NCBI GenBank assembly: GCA_013152945.1
Contig: JAADFL010000094.1
Coordinates: forward strand, 8,224 to 31,880
Direction: 5' to 3'
Source: Deltaproteobacteria bacterium
GTDB taxonomy: Bacteria > Myxococcota_A > JAADFL01
DNA: 23,657 nt
Shown here: positions 10,303 to 23,636 of the stretch, in pieces
Position numbering within the stretch: the first letter of the stretch is position 1
Layout: the number at the start of each line of letters is the position of its first letter
Translations under genes and position numbers: made by a program
The notes under the pieces: model-generated
Databases searched by the model: none
What the model was told of the DNA's origin: nothing
What the model saw: only the letters and a program-made list of their open reading frames with translations

Positions 10303-12810
10303 GTGGCGGAAAAATCAAGAGAAAAAAGCTTGCGTCTTGTTTTCAGCCTGTGTCTTTTACTCGCATCCTGGTCCTGCTTTGAGCAGGCTCCCGGAGTCCC
10401 TTTGGTTGAAAGACCGAAGCCGAAATTATGGCAGAACGTGTTTAAAGCGCCTGATGTGCCGGATGCCTTTTCACCGGCCATGGCCGACGGGTTCTCATCA
10501 TGGGGAGTATACAAGGACAAGCAGGCCCTGGCTGCAAAGCAGGGAATTTCCCTTCGCAGGCTCAGGCCCGATTACATGAGTTTGTCCTTTTTCGGTATTG
10601 GCAACGGAAGAGTCTTTGCATTCGAGGGAGGAACCTATCCGCTCAACACGCTTCACGACATGATCGGCCCGGACATGCAAAAAGGAACCGAGGGCTTTTT
10701 CGGTGATGTCTCCCTGCAGGTAGGCAGTGACCCGTCGGCTGCAAGACTCTTTGAAAAGGAATGGATCTTCAGGGCGAGAAATGCTCCGGTGACGATCACA
10801 AAGGCAATCGTAGAAGGTGGAGATATTGCCTTGTACACCCTGGACTTTGCACCAAGGGGGCTGCCCCGGGACCATATTCTTGTGGAAAACACCATTATCA
10901 GGGTTGCGATCGTGGAAAACCTGTCCGGCCAACCCGTAAAAGGTTTGGAGGCATTCACCACAGCGGCGACCAAGTGCAGCGTGTCCGGCAATACGGCGGG
11001 AGAGCAGAGAAACGAAAAGGTAATACGATACACCTGTCTCGACGGCACGTGTGAGACGTACGAACCAAGCTCGAGCACTATCAACGGCGGCCTGATCTTC
11101 AGCCTGGACGACCTCCGGCCCGGAGCAACAAGGGAACTTTCAATGGTATTCGCATTTACGACACAGGATAGATCTAAAGATGGAGATGCAACGATTTCAG
11201 ATGCAAAAGAGATTGGCTGGCGCAAGCTCCTCGAGTACACGACGACCTGGTGGAAAACCTGGCTGGATGCGACCACCACGATTCACACACAAGATCCCAA
11301 GGTAGACGATCTCCTCCAAGGTTTGAAGATGACGTTAAAATTACAGCAGACCGCGACAGGTTCCGCCACGCCCATATCCCATTATGCATCCACGTGGACC
11401 AGGGACCAGATGGGATGGGCACGCTACTTTCTCGCAATCGGGGACTATGAGGATGTTGCCTCCATTCTGGACTATGCGTATGCAGCAGCCTGTTACAACG
11501 GCGGCCTGTACAATGCAGTGGATTCGAACCTGGATCCGGACAAGGCGCCGGATCCCCCGGACTGGCTGTCCCTGCCCGCCGGCTCGGGAAGAACTGCTGC
11601 AGAGGGGCCTTCATACATTCCAATCATGTACGACCTGTTGTACCGTTCAACAGGATGGCTCGACAGAATCGAACAAAGGCTGGATTATCTCCAGTACTGC
11701 ATTACCTGCCAGCAGGTGAATGAACAGGGTCTTCTCGGATTCAGCGGAGACGAGACCTTTCGCACTGCGATGGCAATCAATCTTGGGATGGACGCTACAT
11801 TTTCCTTCGAGGATCTTGCATACTCGGCCAACTCTTCTTTCCTGTTCCTTGCTGCAAAAGAAGGTTTCGCACGCATGACCAAGGCGCTGGGCCGATTGGA
11901 AAGAAATAAAGATATCGGGGCCCGGGCCGCACTGGTGCTGAATGGGCTCGAAAAACACTTCCTCGTGACCGGCAAGGGATACTATGCGCCCTTTCTGCTC
12001 AAGGACGGCCTCGTACCCGGTCCTGCTCCGTTCGAAGACGTGAATACCAAGCCCTTGTGGCTTGGTGTAGAATCAATTCCGGGACAGAGGGAACAGGATA
12101 ACATAGAGGCACTGATCGATTCCGCATACAGGGGAGATGGCCTGGTTGTTTCACATTCGGGTCAGGACGTGGAGATATTCGGCATCAACCTCGGCAATGG
12201 AATTTACACCGGCATGAGCCCCGGATACGTGTTGTACGACTTGACTGCAATGAACAGCCCGCTTGCAAAAGAGGCTTTCAATGCCCTGAATGTCGTGGCC
12301 GACCTTTCGGGCAATTTTTCAGAGGATATTCAGTTCGATGGAAACAGGCCGATACAGCCATTCTACTTTCCCTCGGGCGGGCAAGGAGAACTTTGGACAA
12401 GGTTCAGACCCTGGGAAGGCGGAATATGCGGCGAGGCAGCTCTTTATTATCTTACCGGAAGAAAACTCGATTGCCCGGAATCAACCCTGTCCCTGTTTCC
12501 AAGGCTCCCCAACAATTGGAGCAAGCTCGAAGTCGAAAATATGCGGCTTTGTCCCAGTGACGACTTGAACTTCACACTGGAGGATACAGGAACTTCATTG
12601 CTTTTCACAATAGAGGCATCCTCTCTTTCCAAGCCCTATGACCTTACATTGAATCTTGCTGTTCCAGGCCCCATGACCCATCCAAGAGTCATGATAGGCG
12701 ATAATGTCCTGGGGCAATCGGATTACCTTGTCACCAGGAAAGGGGACCAAGAGATACTCACCATCGACATGAAACTCGATACGGGCAAGGTAATTAGCGT
12801 AACTTACTGA
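10303..12810 (+). CDS. Exported six-hairpin (alpha/alpha)6 glycosidase-like protein
   Basis: The 835-aa product starts at GTG 10303, with AGGAG 7 bases upstream. An N-terminal signal peptide (about 1-25) is clear; the cysteine at 25 follows ASWS, a poor lipobox, so lipidation is doubtful. Residues about 40-310 look like an N-terminal beta-sandwich domain. From about 330 to 750 the sequence resembles six-hairpin glycosidases of the GH15/GH63/glycogen-debranching type, with a conserved-looking STWTRDQMGW (W365-R367-D368), repeated aromatic helices and a late PWEGGICGEAALYYLTG segment. A small beta domain ends the protein. Such enzymes usually hydrolyse alpha-glucosidic bonds, which would supply sugars to the phosphorylase operon that converges on it 26 bp away. 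The exact family and substrate cannot be read from the sequence. No terminator is evident between the two convergent genes. Confidence 0.7.
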   Translation: MAEKSREKSLRLVFSLCLLLASWSCFEQAPGVPLVERPKPKLWQNVFKAPDVPDAFSPAMADGFSSWGVYKDKQALAAKQGISLRRLRPDYMSLSFFGIGNGRVFAFEGGTYPLNTLHDMIGPDMQKGTEGFFGDVSLQVGSDPSAARLFEKEWIFRARNAPVTITKAIVEGGDIALYTLDFAPRGLPRDHILVENTIIRVAIVENLSGQPVKGLEAFTTAATKCSVSGNTAGEQRNEKVIRYTCLDGTCETYEPSSSTINGGLIFSLDDLRPGATRELSMVFAFTTQDRSKDGDATISDAKEIGWRKLLEYTTTWWKTWLDATTTIHTQDPKVDDLLQGLKMTLKLQQTATGSATPISHYASTWTRDQMGWARYFLAIGDYEDVASILDYAYAAACYNGGLYNAVDSNLDPDKAPDPPDWLSLPAGSGRTAAEGPSYIPIMYDLLYRSTGWLDRIEQRLDYLQYCITCQQVNEQGLLGFSGDETFRTAMAINLGMDATFSFEDLAYSANSSFLFLAAKEGFARMTKALGRLERNKDIGARAALVLNGLEKHFLVTGKGYYAPFLLKDGLVPGPAPFEDVNTKPLWLGVESIPGQREQDNIEALIDSAYRGDGLVVSHSGQDVEIFGINLGNGIYTGMSPGYVLYDLTAMNSPLAKEAFNALNVVADLSGNFSEDIQFDGNRPIQPFYFPSGGQGELWTRFRPWEGGICGEAALYYLTGRKLDCPESTLSLFPRLPNNWSKLEVENMRLCPSDDLNFTLEDTGTSLLFTIEASSLSKPYDLTLNLAVPGPMTHPRVMIGDNVLGQSDYLVTRKGDQEILTIDMKLDTGKVISVTY

Positions 12811-15434: not shown

Positions 15435-18400
15435 TCAGATACGGACCAGGTCTTTGACCTTTCCTCTTGCCACACCAATCAAGGTATCGGCCGCGCCATA
15501 GTAAACCAACACACTATCCTCGGGACCGAGTACATCCTTTTCCTCCATGGGGACCATGCCGCAAGTAAAAACGACCCTTGGAACCCAGTAGTCATCACCA
15601 TCCGCATTGCCTATTTCGTATTCCATCTCCGGTTCGAGCACCGGGTTTGGAGAGCGGTAGATCACTCGACTCGGATCGTTCGCATCCATGAGCATCACGC
15701 CCAGTCTGTAGTACCTCTCATAATCCACGCCATGGTACAGGTTCAACCATCCAAGCTCTGTCTTGACGGGAGGTGCACCTGCACCTATTTTAACTCCGTC
15801 CCACATCATGCCGGGCCTCGGACCGGCCACTATTTTTTGTCCGGTCCTTGGCCACGGGCATTCGAGGTCCTGTAGATAGGATATCCAGAGATTCGGATCC
15901 AAGCGGTGATACACTACATAACTCCCGGAAAACCTTGCCGGATACAACACTCCGTCCTTGTTGGACAGACCTGGAAAGGCCAATCCCCATCTCTTCCATT
16001 TATCGAATTTCCCGTCCAGGAAATCATTGATGTCAATCGAGGCCACGGCTATTTGCGCCAACCTTCCATCCCACGCCGTATAGACCATGTGCAACTTTCC
16101 ATCCATCACAGTCACCCTGGGATCTTCGCAACCAGCCGATTCTTCGGGAGTGCCCGGTGAAAACACGGGCTCATCGATCCTTCCATCGATGTTCACACCG
16201 TCCCTGGTCCATGCGAGTCCGATCCTGGAAACCTTGTCATCTCCGAATGCCCTGTACAGGATGTATATTTCACGGTTCAACCTGACTGCAGCGGCGTTCA
16301 GTACATATGTGCTCTCCCATGAATGTCCGGCAATGGGTCGAAGTATGGGACCGCTGCCGAGCCGCTCAAGCTTGGATGCGGGTTTTCCCCTTGTCGTACT
16401 CTGAATGACCAGCAAGTTATCAGGGTCGGCGGATGTACCCAGCAGGTGATTCCCCAGATCCTCATGTTCCCTTCCCTGTCCCATCAGCCTGAATACCGCG
16501 TTGTCCACAACAGCCTCGTCACCTATTCCCGACGCTTGAATGTAACTTGTAAGAAAGTCCCGGGTCGCCCAATCCCTTTCCACAAGAGAGGACAATGGCG
16601 TCGGCGCCCCGGTTCCACCCCGGTGACTGTAACTTGACCAGGTCCAAATCGAGAGGGGCACGAACGTCTGGTCACGCAAAGTGATGGATAAGTGGTAAAC
16701 ATCCATGGCAGCATCGAGAATGGATAAGGCCTCCGTTTCCGCATCATCTTTGGGCCGGTTTCTTCTATTCCGCCTATTTTGGACAAAATCCTTCAACCTG
16801 GCCGCAAGCATCCTCTGGTGCCTGCTTTCGAAGACATTATGAGCACTAAGCACCCTCCGTCCCCAGTGCCCCCTTATGGACGCCGCGAGTTTTGCTCCGA
16901 ATGAATCACCATCCATTGCAAATTTACGCCATGCCTCGGAAAAGAGTTCGATGCCGACGATTTTCTTGATGGTCCTCAACAAGAACCATGACTTGGGAAA
17001 CTCACCCCCGAAGTCGCTTGAACAAACACTGCTTACAACTCTTCCCGCCAATCTTGCCAGAGCAGCGGTTCCGTGAATGTCCAAGGCCCACGGCATCAAT
17101 TCCGGGTCGATTATCCCGTAACCAAGCGGAGCCACATGGAACCAGTACGGGGCCGACTCCTTTTCGATCAGGTCCATGACCTTGTTCAGATAGGCCTGCC
17201 TGTCAGTCCATGCCGCCATTCCAAGGGCTGTATTCGGATCCGTCTGTTCCAGCAATGATGAAACGTCCGCGCATTTAACAGCAGTCAACAGATTGGGCGG
17301 AGGCAGGTTGCGCAGAATACTTGCCGCAGCTTTTGGGGTGAGTTGAAAGGTATCGCTGCGGGAAAACTCATCGACCGATTCCCTCGTGAGCCGTTCCACG
17401 TCCTTTTTCAAAGTCAAATCACCCGGCAGTAACACCGAGTCCAGGGCCTGTTCCAGGTGCTTCATGAAATCATGGACCCTACGTAGAATTTCGGCAGAGT
17501 CCCGGAGATTGTCCAGGTGCAGCCACTGCTTCGAGAACAGCCTGAACTCCTGCCTGTACTGATCCAGCAAATCTTTGTATACCTCGTTGGCGTTGGCCTT
17601 CTTTCCTTGCGGTCCAACCAGTTCCTGGGGAACGATTACGCTTACATTCGGTACGAACTGCCAAGCCCCCAGCAACGGCAGGTAAGGCTCTTCCTCCTGC
17701 TGTTTTTCAAGCCACCTGTTCTTCAACCCGGTCCTGCGGGAGACGAACTTTTCCGCCTGCAAATCCAAGATATGTTCCGCCTCCCTCATGGCTACATCGC
17801 GAAGCCCGGAACTTGGAGCATCACCTTGCACGCAAAGTTTCTTTTCCAGATCCTTTATTTCGGATGCGAATGCCCTCAACCTGGCGAGAAACAACGGAAA
17901 CAAGCCGTCCACCACATCATCGGGGTGAAACCTGTCGTCAAAAGAATAGGCCAAGAGGAATTCCTCCAGTACCTGCAGCCACTCGTCGGATGTCAAACCA
18001 GGCGCACCCCCGGGATCATCGGCCATCATTTCCATGTGGGAGCGAAGGTCCCCGGGCAACAAGGCCCTGAACATGGTGTCATCAAAATGGTTGAATTCCA
18101 GCCTGAAACGTTTCTCCAATTCTATCGTGTCCAAATTGCAGGCCGGGGATGAAGTGTCGAGGCCGACTCCCATTACAGCAGGAGTCCTGAACAAACCCGG
18201 TCTCTTGGTCCACCATGAGCTTTGTCTATCGGCCAGGGTAAACAGGACGTGCGCCACTTGTCTGAATACGAGCTTCAACTTGCCCAGACCGCGGGCACGT
18301 ACTGCCGGACCCAAGGAAACTTCACAAGGCTCTATTCCCAAGGTCATGGCGGTAACACCCAGCCAGGGCTCGAAACCAGCCTCTCCGACTTCATCGCACC

Positions 18401-19028
18401 AGCCGGTCTCCAGTTCCATGACCTTCCTGGCCAGGTATGAAGACATGCAAAGCAACCCGGATCCTGATTGCTTCAATCCAAGGTCGAATACACCTGCGAA
18501 CATGGGATAGGCCAGCAATGAATCCACCGGCCCGGCCAGCGGATGCATGTCGAAATGCGCCCAGGCAAGATCGACACCATGGTTCCCGACCGTGTCCACG
18601 ATTCTTGAAATCCATGCCGGATCGATTTCGCCGGGGCCGCCATGCTCAACCATGGAACGAACCGGGTCGTTCGGCATTAACAACAGGATTGCATTCATCC
18701 TGGCGGCCGCATCCATTAGAGCCGCCACGGCCCAGCCCCTGGATCGAAATCCCTGCGGCATGGCCATGATCGTGATGGAATCTTCCCGAGGCATGGCCAG
18801 GGATGAGGCACGGCGCCCGGTGCACTCGACCCCAACCACCCTGCCGTCAATGCGATATTTCTCAATGGCCTTGGTTGCGGCATCAATGGACCGCACTGTA
18901 TCGAGGGAATTGGTGCATGTCACGCCGATGAGAACACTGCAAGGCCCAAGCGCCTCCAATTTTTCCAACATGTCCTCGATAGCCTCGATCGACATTGTAC
19001 CGGCATCCATGCTGTTTTTAAATTTCAA
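15435..19028 (-). CDS. Giant fusion: GT-A glycosyltransferase domain + helical middle + GH130 mannoside-phosphorylase domain
   Basis: About 1197 aa, cytoplasmic, with no signal peptide. Residues about 30-280 look like a GT-A nucleotide-sugar transferase related to glucosylglycerate/mannosylglycerate synthases: a Rossmann-like start, a PND at ~119-121 in the place of the usual DxD, and a YPMFAGVFDLGLKQSGSG segment. Residues about 300-860 are mostly helical and unfamiliar. Residues about 870-1195 are a GH130 five-bladed propeller (YRAFGDDKVSRIGLAWTRDG, GCEDPRVTVMDGKLHMVYTAWDG with D969, and GMMWDGVKIG). GH130 enzymes phosphorolyse beta-mannosides to mannose-1-phosphate. GGAGG followed after 5 bases by TTG sets the start at 19028; an upstream TTG at 19040 overlaps the ribosome site. 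It is the middle gene of a three-gene operon (gaps 46 and 45 bp). Making and phosphorolysing the same glycoside is one possible role, but the substrate is not readable here. Confidence 0.8.
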   Translation of the reverse strand: MKFKNSMDAGTMSIEAIEDMLEKLEALGPCSVLIGVTCTNSLDTVRSIDAATKAIEKYRIDGRVVGVECTGRRASSLAMPREDSITIMAMPQGFRSRGWAVAALMDAAARMNAILLLMPNDPVRSMVEHGGPGEIDPAWISRIVDTVGNHGVDLAWAHFDMHPLAGPVDSLLAYPMFAGVFDLGLKQSGSGLLCMSSYLARKVMELETGWCDEVGEAGFEPWLGVTAMTLGIEPCEVSLGPAVRARGLGKLKLVFRQVAHVLFTLADRQSSWWTKRPGLFRTPAVMGVGLDTSSPACNLDTIELEKRFRLEFNHFDDTMFRALLPGDLRSHMEMMADDPGGAPGLTSDEWLQVLEEFLLAYSFDDRFHPDDVVDGLFPLFLARLRAFASEIKDLEKKLCVQGDAPSSGLRDVAMREAEHILDLQAEKFVSRRTGLKNRWLEKQQEEEPYLPLLGAWQFVPNVSVIVPQELVGPQGKKANANEVYKDLLDQYRQEFRLFSKQWLHLDNLRDSAEILRRVHDFMKHLEQALDSVLLPGDLTLKKDVERLTRESVDEFSRSDTFQLTPKAAASILRNLPPPNLLTAVKCADVSSLLEQTDPNTALGMAAWTDRQAYLNKVMDLIEKESAPYWFHVAPLGYGIIDPELMPWALDIHGTAALARLAGRVVSSVCSSDFGGEFPKSWFLLRTIKKIVGIELFSEAWRKFAMDGDSFGAKLAASIRGHWGRRVLSAHNVFESRHQRMLAARLKDFVQNRRNRRNRPKDDAETEALSILDAAMDVYHLSITLRDQTFVPLSIWTWSSYSHRGGTGAPTPLSSLVERDWATRDFLTSYIQASGIGDEAVVDNAVFRLMGQGREHEDLGNHLLGTSADPDNLLVIQSTTRGKPASKLERLGSGPILRPIAGHSWESTYVLNAAAVRLNREIYILYRAFGDDKVSRIGLAWTRDGVNIDGRIDEPVFSPGTPEESAGCEDPRVTVMDGKLHMVYTAWDGRLAQIAVASIDINDFLDGKFDKWKRWGLAFPGLSNKDGVLYPARFSGSYVVYHRLDPNLWISYLQDLECPWPRTGQKIVAGPRPGMMWDGVKIGAGAPPVKTELGWLNLYHGVDYERYYRLGVMLMDANDPSRVIYRSPNPVLEPEMEYEIGNADGDDYWVPRVVFTCGMVPMEEKDVLGPEDSVLVYYGAADTLIGVARGKVKDLVRI

Positions 19029-19074
19029 TATCGCCTCCAATAACTTGTCATTGATTAACCCGGGGACATGAATT

Positions 19075-20715
19075 TTACTTTACGGCTCTTGTTTGCATTC
19101 CTCTATTCATCCAGCCCTTGGCAAAAACAAGGGCTATCGGTGAAATCAATGCTATCAGGGCATAGATGAGCCACAATGTACCGCTCCTGGTCGCTTCGCC
19201 CGTCTCTGGTTTCGGCAGGTAGGTGGCAACAAAATAGCCTGAGTACATGCCGGTTATCATCTTGGTCAAAAACCATGGAAACTGGCCTATCCCCATGTAA
19301 ACTCCGGTCTTGCCCTTGGGCGCTATCTCTGCAATCCATTGAAGAAACCGGGGCTGCCACATTGCCTCGCCGATAGACATGAATAGTACATATGTCAAGA
19401 ACAAGTACACATTCGGCCCAACGGCAAGAAGCAACGTCGGCAGGGCCATCACGAAGGTCCCGTAGATCATCATCTTGTAAACATTGGCCTTGGCTGTCAG
19501 GCCTGCAACCAGGGGAGCCAAAACAAATATCAGGATCGGGTTGAGGTTGGAGAAAAATTCGAAATAGTCGCCCACGACCTGGCCGTGAAAGGCCCGGTCG
19601 AGATAATACGGCAATGTGAGCCAGTTGTGGGCGAACAACGTCTGAACAGGTATTAGTACGAATATGAAAAACGTGAACCTCGAATCCCTGAAAGGATGCT
19701 CGGGCCGCCTGTATATATAATCAGCGGCCGCACCCAAAGATAAAACCGTCGCCAATACATAGGCAAGATATTTCATCCACGGATTACCGGACAGCCTGCC
19801 GTTTGAAATCGCGATACCTGCGGCCAAGGCGCCTACAGCCAGGAGCACGAGTAAATATAGAAGTCTGTTATCTACATGTATCTTGTTGGCCGGCTCAGTT
19901 TTCCCATCATCCTGTATCTCATCTTCTTGTTTTTCTCCTTCTTCTCCGCCGGACTCCTGCTTCTCCTCTTCGACCCTTGCAACCGCCGCCTTATCTGTCT
20001 TCCTTGTGAGGATTGTTACCGTAATCAGGAGAGCCACTGCAACGAAACCCGTATATACCCAAAACACGGCGGCAAGCCCGTTAGGGGGAAAAATACTAAC
20101 CGCCCTGTGCCTTACAAAAGGAGATATGAAGCCTGAAAAGAAGGCGCCGAGGTTCATCAGGCCGTATATGACTGCATATCCCATGGCCGCCGTCTTTGGA
20201 CCGGTATATCTTTTTACCCCTGCGTACGCAGCGGGTTGAAACAGTCCGTAAGCAAGGACCATTATCAATAGGCCGGATGCCATGATAAAAAACATGGGAG
20301 ACAAGATGCCTTGCCCAAAATCCATTGTGCCTGAAAATGCAATCAGGCCCCTGCCCAGAAGAAACATTACAAAGGATAGGACCAGGGCCTTTCTCACTCC
20401 TATCTTGTCACTGACACCACCCAGGAAGAGCATTGCCAGCGTTATGCCGCCGGTTACTCCGGAATACACCCAACCTGCCTGCTCGTCGGTAAGTCCTACG
20501 TTTTCCGAACAGAACTTGCCAAGTATGGTTAGTATCCCGAAGTAGACCAATCCCTCGATCACATATGGTACGTTGATTCCCCAAAGAGCCTTGGGCGCCT
20601 TGAAAAAAGCGACCAATGTCTGTCCCAGTTCCCTGAAGGCATCTCTTATTATTTTTTCCAGGCTCTGGTCTGTTTGTTCCTCTTGTTCCATCCCATCCTT
20701 GCCATTGTCATCCAT
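19075..20715 (-). CDS. Major facilitator superfamily transporter
   Basis: A 546-aa polytopic membrane protein with about 12-14 hydrophobic segments. An acidic N-terminal tail (about 1-40) precedes the first helices. MFS motif A appears as GGVSDKIGVRK at about 99-109, in the loop between helices 2 and 3. A highly charged Lys/Glu/Asp-rich cytoplasmic loop (about 238-278) separates the two halves. The overall pattern, including YTGPKTAAMGYAVIYGLMNLGAFFSGF, recalls oligopeptide or sugar symporters of the POT/MFS type. The start at 20715 is preferred because GAGAGGAAAG lies about 5-8 bases before it; the frame is open to 20757. It is the first gene of the operon with the GT-GH130 fusion and the alpha-glucan phosphorylase, so an oligosaccharide substrate is likely. 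The transcript leader upstream contains a structured RNA with a terminator. Confidence 0.85.
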   Translation of the reverse strand: MDDNGKDGMEQEEQTDQSLEKIIRDAFRELGQTLVAFFKAPKALWGINVPYVIEGLVYFGILTILGKFCSENVGLTDEQAGWVYSGVTGGITLAMLFLGGVSDKIGVRKALVLSFVMFLLGRGLIAFSGTMDFGQGILSPMFFIMASGLLIMVLAYGLFQPAAYAGVKRYTGPKTAAMGYAVIYGLMNLGAFFSGFISPFVRHRAVSIFPPNGLAAVFWVYTGFVAVALLITVTILTRKTDKAAVARVEEEKQESGGEEGEKQEDEIQDDGKTEPANKIHVDNRLLYLLVLLAVGALAAGIAISNGRLSGNPWMKYLAYVLATVLSLGAAADYIYRRPEHPFRDSRFTFFIFVLIPVQTLFAHNWLTLPYYLDRAFHGQVVGDYFEFFSNLNPILIFVLAPLVAGLTAKANVYKMMIYGTFVMALPTLLLAVGPNVYLFLTYVLFMSIGEAMWQPRFLQWIAEIAPKGKTGVYMGIGQFPWFLTKMITGMYSGYFVATYLPKPETGEATRSGTLWLIYALIALISPIALVFAKGWMNRGMQTRAVK

Positions 20716-20810
20716 GTCAACTTTCCTCTCACTTCTTGCTTCTGCGATACAGAACATACTCGGAAATATGAACTTTACATGTTTAGGCGGGTTTTCTCAA
20801 TGATTCAAAT

Positions 20811-20884
20811 AAAAAAAAGACCGGCAGGATCATTACCTTCGAAGGGGGGGGGAGCCTCCGAGAGGTCAAGAGTCATCCTGCCGG
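20811..20884 (-). terminator. Strong Rho-independent terminator upstream of the MFS operon
   Basis: A perfect 10-bp stem, CCGGCAGGAT (20875-20884 as read on the minus strand) with ATCCTGCCGG (20821-20830), is followed two bases later by eight consecutive T residues on the minus strand (20811-20818). The 44-nt loop includes CCUC/GAGG and CCUUCGAAGG sub-hairpins and a C9 run. It lies about 96 bp before the MFS start codon, so it either ends a small RNA or conditionally blocks the operon. Confidence 0.8.
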
Positions 20885-21029
20885 CCTAGGTATAGGGCAA
20901 AAGCCCCTAAACTGTGTGTCGAGGACATGGATGGGATGATCTCTGCTAGGAGGGGGGGAAAGCACCAAGGGAGCTGTGGTCTTCCCATCCACATCCTCAA
21001 CGTCCTAGGTGTTCAAAGAACAAATACAG
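20811..21029 (-). ncRNA. Structured, terminated RNA: sigma-54-dependent small RNA or leader/attenuator
   Basis: Read leftward from the predicted sigma-54 start near 21029, the RNA folds into clear parts. A small GUUC/GAAC hairpin comes first. A long helix pairs 20983-21001 with 20918-20936: 19 continuous pairs, including a tandem G-U/U-G and a further U-G, closed again by CCUAGG/CCUAGG at 21004-21009 and 20885-20890. A small hairpin around GGGC-UUUU-GCCC sits inside. A terminator ends it (next entry). The wobble pairs would be A-C mismatches on the plus strand, supporting minus-strand transcription. Two C-rich single-stranded tracts (CCCCCCCUCC and CUCCCCCCCCC) lie in the apical loops. It ends about 96 nt before the MFS start, so it could act as an attenuator leader or a separate small RNA. 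No known family is recognised. Confidence 0.6.
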
Positions 21030-21040
21030 CTTTCCCTTTA

Positions 21041-21055
21041 GCAATCGCCATGCCA
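21041..21055 (-). promoter_or_regulatory. Sigma-54 (-24/-12) promoter for the structured RNA and MFS operon
   Basis: Minus-strand TGGCATGGCGATTGCT has the invariant GG (21053-21054) and GC (21041-21042) exactly 10 bp apart, and differs from TGGCACG-N4-TTGC at one base. The predicted start is about 21029. A TTGACA at 21062-21067 has no acceptable -10, making sigma-54 the better fit. The divergently encoded sigma-54 activator begins 200 bp away. Confidence 0.65.
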
Positions 21056-21150: not shown

Positions 21151-21222
21151 TTACCACAGAAAACCATTGACATCATTATTTTCCACTTGCAGTATTCGAA
21201 CTGGTTGTGGTAAAAAAACCAC
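21151..21222 (+). promoter_or_regulatory. Control region of the sigma-54 activator gene
   Basis: TTGACA at 21167-21172 has CAGTAT 17 bp later (21190-21195), a modest -10. TTACCACA (21151-21158) is repeated inverted as TGTGGTAA (21206-21213). The latter starts a palindrome, GTGGT-AAAAAA-ACCAC (21207-21222), just before the gene. The shared half-site GTGGT/ACCAC could be an operator for the regulator itself, also serving as enhancer for the leftward promoter. Speculative. Confidence 0.35.
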
Positions 21223-21248
21223 TGCGCTTGAGTGGGGAAAGGAACAGA

Positions 21249-22730
21249 ATGAAAGTACTGGTAGTAGACGATGATTCCAACACAAGGTACCTGATACAGG
21301 TTTTCTGTAAGGACATGAGCATTGATATTGTATTTGCATCGGACGGAATAGAGGCTTTGGACTTGATACAAGGCGGTAATATCAACTTGGTTGTAACTGA
21401 CCAGCGAATGCCCAGGATGGATGGTGAGCAACTTCTTGTCAGGATCAAGGAATTAAACCCCGAGATACCGGTTCTGATAATGACTTCTTATGGAACAATC
21501 GAAAATGCGGTAAAGGTCTTTCAGCTCGGTGCATATGACTACATCACAAAGCCTTTGGAAAAAGAAGTCTTTTGTTCAAGGCTCAATAATGCAATAGATA
21601 AGCTCAAGCTCACCGAGGAAATCACCAGCCTTCGCCATAACCTCAAGGAACGTTCGGGACTGAATCATATTCTTGGACGAAGCAAGGTTATGCTCGATAT
21701 TATTGATAAAATTCCGGTTATTGCAAAGACGGAGGCATCAGTCGTCATCTATGGGGAAAGCGGCACAGGCAAGGAACTGGTAGCAAGGGCGATCCATGAC
21801 TTGAGTCCAAGGGCTACCGCGCCTTTCGTTACCGTTAATTGCGGAGCCTTGCCTGACACATTACTGGAAAGTGAACTGTTTGGTTACAAGAAAGGGGCAT
21901 TTACAGACGCACGGCAAGACACTCCGGGCCTGGTCACTTCTGCAAATGGGGGAACACTCTTTCTGGATGAGATCGGAGAGGCCAGCCTCAACGTCCAGGT
22001 CAAGCTCCTGAGATTCCTGCAAGTTAAAGAATACAAGCCCCTGGGTAGTACAAAGACATTGAAAGCAGATGTGCGAATAGTTACCGCCACCAACAGGGAC
22101 CTGAAAAAATCCATTGAAGAAGGCGGATTCAGGGAAGACCTGTACTACAGGTTGAACATCATCCCAATTCATTTGCCCCCCCTCCGGGAAAGAAAGGTGG
22201 ACATCCCTTTGCTGGCAAACCATTTTTTAAAGAGATTCGCTAAAATCGCAAACAGAAACATGGCGGATTTTTCACCACTGGCCATGCAAAAATTGGTGAC
22301 CTACAGTTGGCCCGGAAACATCCGGGAACTGGAAAACAAGGTTCAGCAGATGGTAATCCTTTCTGAAACCGACCGGATCTTGCCCGAGCACGTGAACCCG
22401 GGAGAAGAGGAAATTTACCTAATACCTGCTGCACAAGGTGAAACCGCCAGCCACGATAACACTCAAAAAACAGAAAATGAGCCACAGGAACTCGATTTAT
22501 TGACAAGGGCCTTTGTCCTGGGAGGTGAAGATAACCTTGAGCGAGCAGGCAATTTCAAGCAGGAAAAACGAAAAGTAATAGAATCATTTGAAAAGATATA
22601 TCTCAAAACCCTATTACGCCGGAATAATGGCAACATTTCCAGGGCAGCCAGAGAAGCTGAAATGCCAAGGAAAAACTTTTGGCAAAAAATGAAGCAATAT
22701 AATATTCACAATGTTAATTTCAAAGCCTAG
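21249..22730 (+). CDS. NtrC-family sigma-54-dependent response regulator
   Basis: A 493-aa enhancer-binding protein. The receiver domain (about 1-120) has D7-D9, phospho-acceptor D51 in VVTDQRMP and a TKP lysine near the end. The AAA+ domain (about 140-380) has Walker A GESGTGKE (169-176), Walker B GGTLFLDE and arginine-finger sequences FREDLYYRLN. The sigma-54-contacting loop reads GAFTDA (216-221) rather than GAFTGA. A Fis-type helix-turn-helix closes the protein (about 450-490, NGNISRAAREAEMPRKNFWQKM). The start at ATG 21249 follows GAAAGGAA; the upstream GTG at 21207 lies in a palindrome and is rejected. No sensor kinase is in the window, so the input is unknown. Outward-facing sigma-54 promoters flank the gene on both sides. 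Its DNA is visibly more A/T-rich than the cytochrome operon. Confidence 0.95.
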   Translation: MKVLVVDDDSNTRYLIQVFCKDMSIDIVFASDGIEALDLIQGGNINLVVTDQRMPRMDGEQLLVRIKELNPEIPVLIMTSYGTIENAVKVFQLGAYDYITKPLEKEVFCSRLNNAIDKLKLTEEITSLRHNLKERSGLNHILGRSKVMLDIIDKIPVIAKTEASVVIYGESGTGKELVARAIHDLSPRATAPFVTVNCGALPDTLLESELFGYKKGAFTDARQDTPGLVTSANGGTLFLDEIGEASLNVQVKLLRFLQVKEYKPLGSTKTLKADVRIVTATNRDLKKSIEEGGFREDLYYRLNIIPIHLPPLRERKVDIPLLANHFLKRFAKIANRNMADFSPLAMQKLVTYSWPGNIRELENKVQQMVILSETDRILPEHVNPGEEEIYLIPAAQGETASHDNTQKTENEPQELDLLTRAFVLGGEDNLERAGNFKQEKRKVIESFEKIYLKTLLRRNNGNISRAAREAEMPRKNFWQKMKQYNIHNVNFKA

Positions 22731-22863
22731 GGTTTTTTTACCTCATGCTTGTTTACCATCTAATGTTATAAGATTTTATTTGTTACAAAGATGATAGTCA
22801 TTTGCGCACCGCGTTAAATATTTAAGAATCGCATAGAAAACCATTCCTTTTATCACCTGTTTT

Positions 22864-22878
22864 TGGCATGCACCTTGC
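22864..22878 (+). promoter_or_regulatory. Second sigma-54 (-24/-12) promoter, pointing rightward
   Basis: TGGCATGCACCTTGCT keeps GG (22865-22866) and GC (22877-22878) 10 bp apart and has the same TGGCATG-N4-TTGCT pattern as the leftward site. The predicted start is about 22890. No convincing protein gene follows. AGAAAACCATT at 22835-22845, 19 bp upstream of the site, is also present at 21158-21168 in the other control region. Confidence 0.6.
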
Positions 22879-22889
22879 TTATAATAGCA

Positions 22890-23138
22890 ATCGACAAGGC
22901 TGACGCTTCTGCGCTACAGCCAACGCTCTTTTTCAGAGTCGTTAGAAATGCTGCGAGAACATCTTTTGCCATGTTGTCGTTGTTTTGTTCCACGTTGAAG
23001 CAGATGAGACAAGACATTATATTCCAGTTGGAGCTGTTGCGGCCGCTACCTGTTACTGAAGAAGCTACTCATTTTTACTGTTTTCTTTCCCTTCCCCCGG
23101 TTCTCACTCACCAGCTAGACAGAAACGTCAGCCTTGTC
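22890..23138 (+). ncRNA. Candidate second sigma-54-driven structured RNA (or a MITE-like inverted-repeat element)
   Basis: Three bases after the predicted sigma-54 start, GACAAGGCTGACGCTTCTG (22893-22911) is matched by its inverse at 23120-23138, with one mismatch in 19. Between them lie further local hairpins: GGCTG/CAGCC with CGC/GCG (22898-22921), which would compete with the long-range stem, and AACGCTC/GAGTCGTT (22922-22943). A pyrimidine stretch with a C5 run lies near 23085-23098. No U-tract follows 23138, and the single mismatch would be a G-U pair on the minus strand, so direction is uncertain. The same inverted repeat could be the ends of a small non-autonomous transposon; no target-site duplication is visible. 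Confidence 0.35.
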
Positions 23139-23182
23139 ACTCTTCTATTATCTCGACAAAATCATTCCTGGACGATATGCGG

Positions 23183-23438
23183 CCCTCCCCACCCATGCGT
23201 CCCTCCCATGCGTCCCTCCCCACCCCGTCCCTCCCCACCCAGGTTGATTTTCAAGGTGCCTAAAATATGCTGTTATTTCTTGAATATAGGGGCGGTTCGC
23301 AAACCACCCATGCGTGATCCAATCCCAATAATTTGTATTTTTGCCTCCCGGACCAGGCCGGCTTTCCACCGCCCTCACCCCCTTTTGTCCCCCTCTCCCG
23401 CAGGGCGGGCGAGGGGGATCGTTTGGTACCAATAATTC
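23183..23438 (+). repeat. Dispersed repeat, right copy (complete)
   Basis: CCCTCCCCACCC occurs at 23183-23194, 23214-23225 and 23229-23240, with CCCTCCC and ATGCGT units between. The following 110 bp align with the middle copy, and 23351-23438 align with the left copy. The strong hairpin recurs at 23389-23417. The open frame across 22863-23435 is not protein-like and is explained by this repeat. Confidence 0.85.
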
Positions 23439-23636
23439 CTGGGGCGTTGCCCCAGGCTGACATATTACGCCCCTTCAGGGCTTAATTTTTGCCAGGCATT
23501 CGAAGCATCCGGCCATACATCCCGCATCATAGGGACATTTTTTTTCAATTTAATCATTTCCAATTTAATCAAATAAAATCAATTCCCCAAAAGCCCCAAA
23601 GGGGCGAAATAAAATAGCCTGGGGCAACGCCCCAGG
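23438..23636. repeat. Palindrome-flanked segment inserted in the right repeat copy
   Basis: CCTGGGGCGTTGCCCCAGG (23438-23456) and CCTGGGGCAACGCCCCAGG (23618-23636) are both palindromes and are inverse copies of each other. Between them are GCCC/GGGC (23469-23481) and GCCCC-AAA-GGGGC (23593-23605) hairpins in A/T-rich DNA. The left repeat copy lacks this ~180-bp segment and keeps one degenerate palindrome, so the segment looks inserted or lost as a unit. No open frame of note. Confidence 0.7.

Follow-up and report, generated by a model that had tools for sequence, protein, structure and literature searches.

A candidate sigma-54-dependent, intrinsically terminated RNA divergent from an NtrC-type regulator gene

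In the window, that is, the whole stretch of 23,657 nucleotides that we analysed, there is a candidate small RNA of around 219 nt on the minus strand (RNA1, 20811-21029), whose start was placed from promoter geometry and whose end was placed from a terminator. In our preferred reading, to which we give somewhat better than an even chance, RNA1 is a stand-alone, sigma-54-dependent and intrinsically terminated regulatory RNA that is switched on by the divergent regulator and acts in trans by means of C-rich loops. The match to the sigma-54 promoter (P1), the fold of RNA1, its terminator, the domains of the regulator and a shared 12-mer are read directly from the sequence. Starting from these features, we infer the transcription of RNA1, its activation by the regulator, its pairing, its targets and a feedback.

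According to the mechanism that we propose, the phosphorylated NtrC-type regulator would bind a GGT-N6-ACC dyad around 165 nt upstream of P1 and, once bound, it would activate RNA1; a transcript from a second promoter (P2), beyond the regulator's gene, would probably be under its control as well. RNA1 would work in trans: through the C-rich loops exposed on its two hairpins, CCCCCCCUCCU and C9, it would pair with ribosome-binding sites rich in G and thereby, independently of Hfq, repress translation. The mRNA of the regulator itself would be a likely target, and its repression would amount to negative feedback.

Promoter, extent and fold of RNA1

P1 reads TGGCATGGCGATTGCT and lies at 21040-21055 of the minus strand. 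The minus strand from 21056 to 21039 is TTGGCATGGCGATTGCTA, and within it positions 21055-21040 fit the -24/-12 consensus TGGCAYRNNNNTTGCW with 0 mismatches, so that the promoter which the sequence-only reading had called near-consensus is actually an exact match. In the 4.84-Mb genome there are 22 exact sigma-54 sites, versus 4 for the reversed control pattern, and therefore most exact -24/-12 matches in this organism are likely to be real signals. Furthermore, 24 places in the genome match a sigma-54 activator at E<=1e-20.

The start of RNA1 at around 21029 follows from the usual sigma-54 geometry and its end is the U8 at 20811, which together bear out the length of about 219 nt that had been proposed. 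Regarding the fold, the energy of the minus strand was -90.2 kcal/mol (z -6.3), and none of 200 shuffles was equally good; the opposite strand of the region had a z of -3.9. Hairpin 1 is a helix of 19 continuous pairs on the minus strand (5' arm 20983-21001, 3' arm 20918-20936), three of them G-U wobbles, and it is broken in the plus-strand fold. The sequence-only reading had taken the wobbles of this helix as a pointer to a minus-strand RNA, and that argument is right because the helix is continuous on this strand with its three G-U pairs. It had also described a closing stem CCUAGG. The sequence is indeed present on both sides (5' side 21004-21009, 3' side 20885-20890, minus strand), but the pair probability is 0.55-0.65 and the stem is thus plausible but not certain.

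The perfect 10-bp terminator with eight U was confirmed. Its stem, CCGGCAGGAU/AUCCUGCCGG (5' arm 20875-20884, 3' arm 20830-20821, minus strand), has a probability of around 1 for nine pairs and of 0.76 for the innermost one, and it is followed by UC and by the U8 (20818-20811). The terminator hairpin encloses a long loop of 44 nt that itself holds an inner hairpin, which is why the terminator is absent from the output of a simple terminator scan.

RNA1 is single copy in the genome and therefore it is not a repeat element. No Rfam family matched it at the gathering threshold and nothing beyond noise appeared in the region at E<=10, in agreement with the earlier statement that no known RNA class was recognised. 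The genomes compared share the phylum with the host, none of them being closer; in the 95 nearest, a search for homologues by DNA gave only noise, and in 377 a covariance model built from the single RNA1 sequence found RNA1 itself and one weak hit (E 0.09, 17.4 bits, 120-nt span). When the same model was run on the loci with homologues of the downstream MFS gene and with paralogues of the regulator, it found only the RNA1 locus itself.

The divergent regulator and a second promoter

Divergent from RNA1 lies the gene of an NtrC-type response regulator (21249-22730, plus strand), the probable activator, with a receiver, a sigma-54 AAA+ domain and a Fis-type HTH (HTH_8), in this order. Its GAFTGA loop reads GAFTDA, which is among the GAFTGA variants expected to retain activity in the activators of Desulfovibrio vulgaris (PMC4641369).

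A putative enhancer site, UAS1 (GTGGT-TTTTTT-ACCAC, 21207-21222, minus strand), is found upstream of P1, and its GTGGT-N6-ACCAC dyad would fit a dimeric HTH protein. The core 12-mer GGTTTTTTTACC has 5 copies in the 4.84 Mb, and one of them is upstream of each of the two promoters, P1 and P2; the copy that belongs to P2 is the putative site UAS2 (22731-22742, plus strand). Both copies have the same orientation relative to their promoters and start 165 and 133 nt, respectively, upstream of the -24 elements. Since GGTTTTTTTACC is upstream of each promoter and in the same orientation, the regulator probably drives both. The other three copies have no exact sigma-54 site within around 350 nt. A shared word this long appeared in 20 of 2000 dinucleotide shuffles, and in 8 of the 2000 it had the same orientation; against this stands the T-rich composition of the enhancer site, with which shared words become more likely by chance. 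A second shared element (CACAGAAAACCATT at 21155, CATAGAAAACCATT at 22832) was set aside, as its distance and orientation to P1 and P2 differ.

Two paralogues of the regulator were found in genome G178 (52% and 48% identity), and a search with a looser pattern gave no sigma-54 site across their loci of 14-15 kb. With a chimeric query, MFS plus regulator, one contig scan found homologues of the MFS protein in Acidobacteriota, Calditrichota and Ignavibacteria; its regulator hits had only 24-38% identity, and it did not find the neighbourhood again.

P2 (TGGCATGCACCTTGCT, 22864-22879, plus strand) is also an exact match and starts 134 nt beyond the stop codon of the regulator. It would drive a candidate RNA2 (22890-23140, plus strand), in which the first arm of an inverted repeat of 19 nt begins within 3 nt of the predicted start at 22890. 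The two arms (22893-22911 and 23120-23138) are matched at 18 of 19 positions, and 500 shuffles gave 15 at best. RNA2 has an unpaired CCUUCCCCC stretch, its fold z is modest (-2.6) and a terminator was not seen. Furthermore, another contig (C64, 125-218) has a 98% copy of a 94-nt piece with the 3'-end of RNA2 (23087-23180), beside an Acido-Lenti-1-type end; RNA2 may therefore belong to a repeat and is kept as a candidate only.

A more ambitious reading would take both promoters together. The regulator would be flanked by two sigma-54 promoters with a common enhancer motif, each of them driving a distinct structured RNA with C-rich single strands, and the whole would be a compact, Hfq-free double-RNA circuit that joins translational control to feedback on the activator. 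We consider it doubtful that the locus goes so far; if it does, RNA1 may found a new RNA family.

C-rich loops, possible targets and known systems

C-rich loop 1, CCCCCCCUCC(U) at 20949-20958 of the minus strand, has unpaired probabilities of 0.36-0.98. It carries the anti-Shine-Dalgarno-like CCCCCCCUCCU, which contains CCUCCU, the anti-Shine-Dalgarno core. C-rich loop 2 is a C9 run (20844-20852, minus strand) in the apical loop of the terminator hairpin; its first seven C are unpaired with a probability of around 1.0 and the last two are paired. Only 8 such runs exist in the whole genome, this one included. Because the loops carry CCCCCCCUCCU and C9, translational control is suggested as the way in which RNA1 would act.

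Targets were predicted among 229 start regions, taken from around 390 kb of this genome and from the window, and the best predicted seeds of RNA1 cluster within loop 1 or immediately on its 5' side. Over the ribosome-binding site of the regulator there is a GGGGAAAG (21234-21241, plus strand) that is complementary to CUUUCCCC of loop 1. After accessibility correction this pairing ranked 13 of 229, and the MFS start region ranked 72 of 229. The predicted contact of loop 1 with the regulator mRNA at this site is only suggestive and not significant. Regarding loop 1 as a whole, its mean pairing with the start regions was not stronger than that of shuffled loops (-14.3 versus -15.3), and the richness of the loops in C could simply follow from composition. 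A target list made from G7 tracts before ATG was dropped because most of such ATGs are not gene starts. The Hfq model PF17209 had no match in the genome, which is 94% complete, and it was positive in 5 of 14 control genomes.

The closest likeness of the loops themselves is with two groups of RNAs. In Xanthomonas, sX13 has stable stems with apical C-rich loops and represses, independently of Hfq, mRNAs with G-rich motifs near the start codon (PMC3771888). RNA1 too has C-rich unpaired loops on stable stems, clearly for loop 2 and partly for loop 1, in a genome where Hfq was not found. However, sX13 has three loops with C4/C5 motifs versus two in RNA1 (C7UCC and C9), and RNA1 differs also in lacking a match to any Rfam family and in that its targets are predicted only. 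In the alpha-r14 or 'cuckoo' RNAs of rhizobia, such as NfeR1, anti-Shine-Dalgarno loops sit on several hairpins whose stems are unlike one another, and these RNAs are linked to NtrBC (PMC10746234). The hairpins of RNA1 also carry an anti-Shine-Dalgarno-like loop beside an NtrC-type gene, but RNA1 belongs to another lineage and has two hairpins (CCCCCCCUCCU and C9) rather than three, each with the unpaired CCUCCUCCC that defines the group and that is absent from RNA1.

Regarding gene organisation, small RNAs that a neighbouring sigma-54 activator controls are a functional kind and not a sequence family. RNA1 has the marks of this kind: a -24/-12 promoter at its 5'-end, an intrinsic terminator and an adjacent sigma-54 activator gene with a shared putative upstream site. 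The Qrr RNAs are transcribed from promoters of the sigma-54 type, qrr1 adjoins luxO, and these RNAs require Hfq. In Vibrio they are under the sigma-54 activator LuxO, whose mRNA they repress in turn, so that a feedback loop results (PMC3262071). RNA1 likewise lies beside a sigma-54 activator, and the feedback that we propose would be parallel to Qrr-luxO. Nevertheless, RNA1 has neither a sequence nor an Rfam match to Qrr, Hfq was not found in its genome and its feedback pairing is weakly predicted.

In Pseudomonas and Azotobacter, CrcZ/CrcY are sigma-54-dependent regulatory RNAs next to, and activated by, the NtrC-family CbrB (PMC8871633). RNA1 resembles them in having a sigma-54 promoter beside an NtrC-type regulator gene, and the candidate RNA2, after the regulator gene, has the same layout. 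However, CrcZ is an Hfq/Crc sponge, whereas Hfq was not found here, and CrcZ is downstream of its regulator whereas RNA1 is divergent from it.

If our preferred reading is true, the design of a sigma-54 activator with an adjacent regulatory RNA, as in LuxO-Qrr and CbrB-CrcZ, reaches an uncultured lineage without detectable Hfq, where it is combined with C-rich loops of the anti-Shine-Dalgarno type. Through the enhancer word common to both promoters, the link between activator and RNA could be tested directly with a reporter in a laboratory host.

Alternative readings and other elements of the window

Downstream of RNA1 and on its strand there are genes for an MFS protein, a GT-GH130 protein and a DUF3417/phosphorylase, and the sequence-only reading had left the choice between a small RNA and a conditional leader of this operon. 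As a 5' leader, RNA1 would let a signal choose between termination at 20811 and read-through. The operon is certainly well placed for that, directly downstream on the same strand, with the terminator ending around 95 nt ahead of the ATG at 20715. Nevertheless, no competing antiterminator fold was found: the terminator pairs are near probability 1, no alternative fold removes them, and when the 5' arm of the terminator is made unavailable the minimum energy is around 17 kcal/mol worse. Furthermore, a sigma-70-like promoter that could serve the MFS operon (TTGAGA-17-TAAAGT, 20772-20800, minus strand, a consensus match only) sits downstream of the RNA1 terminator, between it and the MFS gene. At 20 loci with MFS homologues, from other phyla, there was no -24/-12 match where upstream sequence was present, and a terminator-like hairpin, a weak one, was found at one of the 20; these homologues lack the same operon and are too distant (58-66% identity over the longer alignments) to exclude a leader for this genome. 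Because of the energy cost, the sigma-70-like promoter and the MFS homologues without a sigma-54 site, the leader reading is disfavoured and we judge it quite improbable. The exact sigma-54 site, the strong terminator, the divergent activator gene and the shared putative enhancer speak for the small RNA.

A sigma-54-driven RNA1 might also bind a protein instead of mRNAs, either as a sponge like CrcZ/RsmZ or as a polymerase decoy like 6S. We regard this as unlikely, although long stable helices, which are typical for protein-binding RNAs, count for it. The layout is also like that of CrcZ, where a sigma-54 promoter lies beside an NtrC-family regulator gene (PMC8871633). However, the Hfq search in the genome was negative, the GGA motifs of RNA1 are outside the hairpin loops in the predicted fold, and neither the Rfam model of 6S RNA nor a Csr-type family was listed for the region even at E<=10. 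The remaining alternative, to which we give a very low chance, is that the promoter match and the hairpins do not amount to a functional RNA gene and that the structure either has its role in the DNA itself or is what is left of a decayed mobile element. The end of the contig does bear repeat elements (inverted pairs of Acido-Lenti-1), another contig has a second copy of part of RNA2 and no homologues of RNA1 were found in the two genome searches described above. Nevertheless, RNA1 itself is single copy, its G-U pairs make the fold favour the minus strand, and the U8 terminator and P1 are on the same strand.

Among the other genes of the window, the 1201-aa protein at 15435-19040 (minus strand) has a C-terminal GH130 domain, nearest to the beta-1,2-mannobiose phosphorylase models and below their cut-offs, and its first 900 residues have no Pfam match. 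At 10303-12810 (plus strand) an 835-aa open frame, also without a Pfam match, adjoins multihaem cytochrome genes.

Regarding the repeats, two matches to Acido-Lenti-1 (RF01687), at 23438-23482 (plus strand) and 23592-23636 (minus strand), make up an inverted pair of 54 nt. There are 44 such matches in the genome, and since many of them are opposite-strand pairs around 154 nt apart and many are at contig ends, Acido-Lenti-1 behaves here like a paired repeat element (MITE/REPIN-like). Between RNA2 and this pair, at 23177-23240, there are four copies of a short imperfect direct repeat similar to CCCTCCCCACCCATGCGT.
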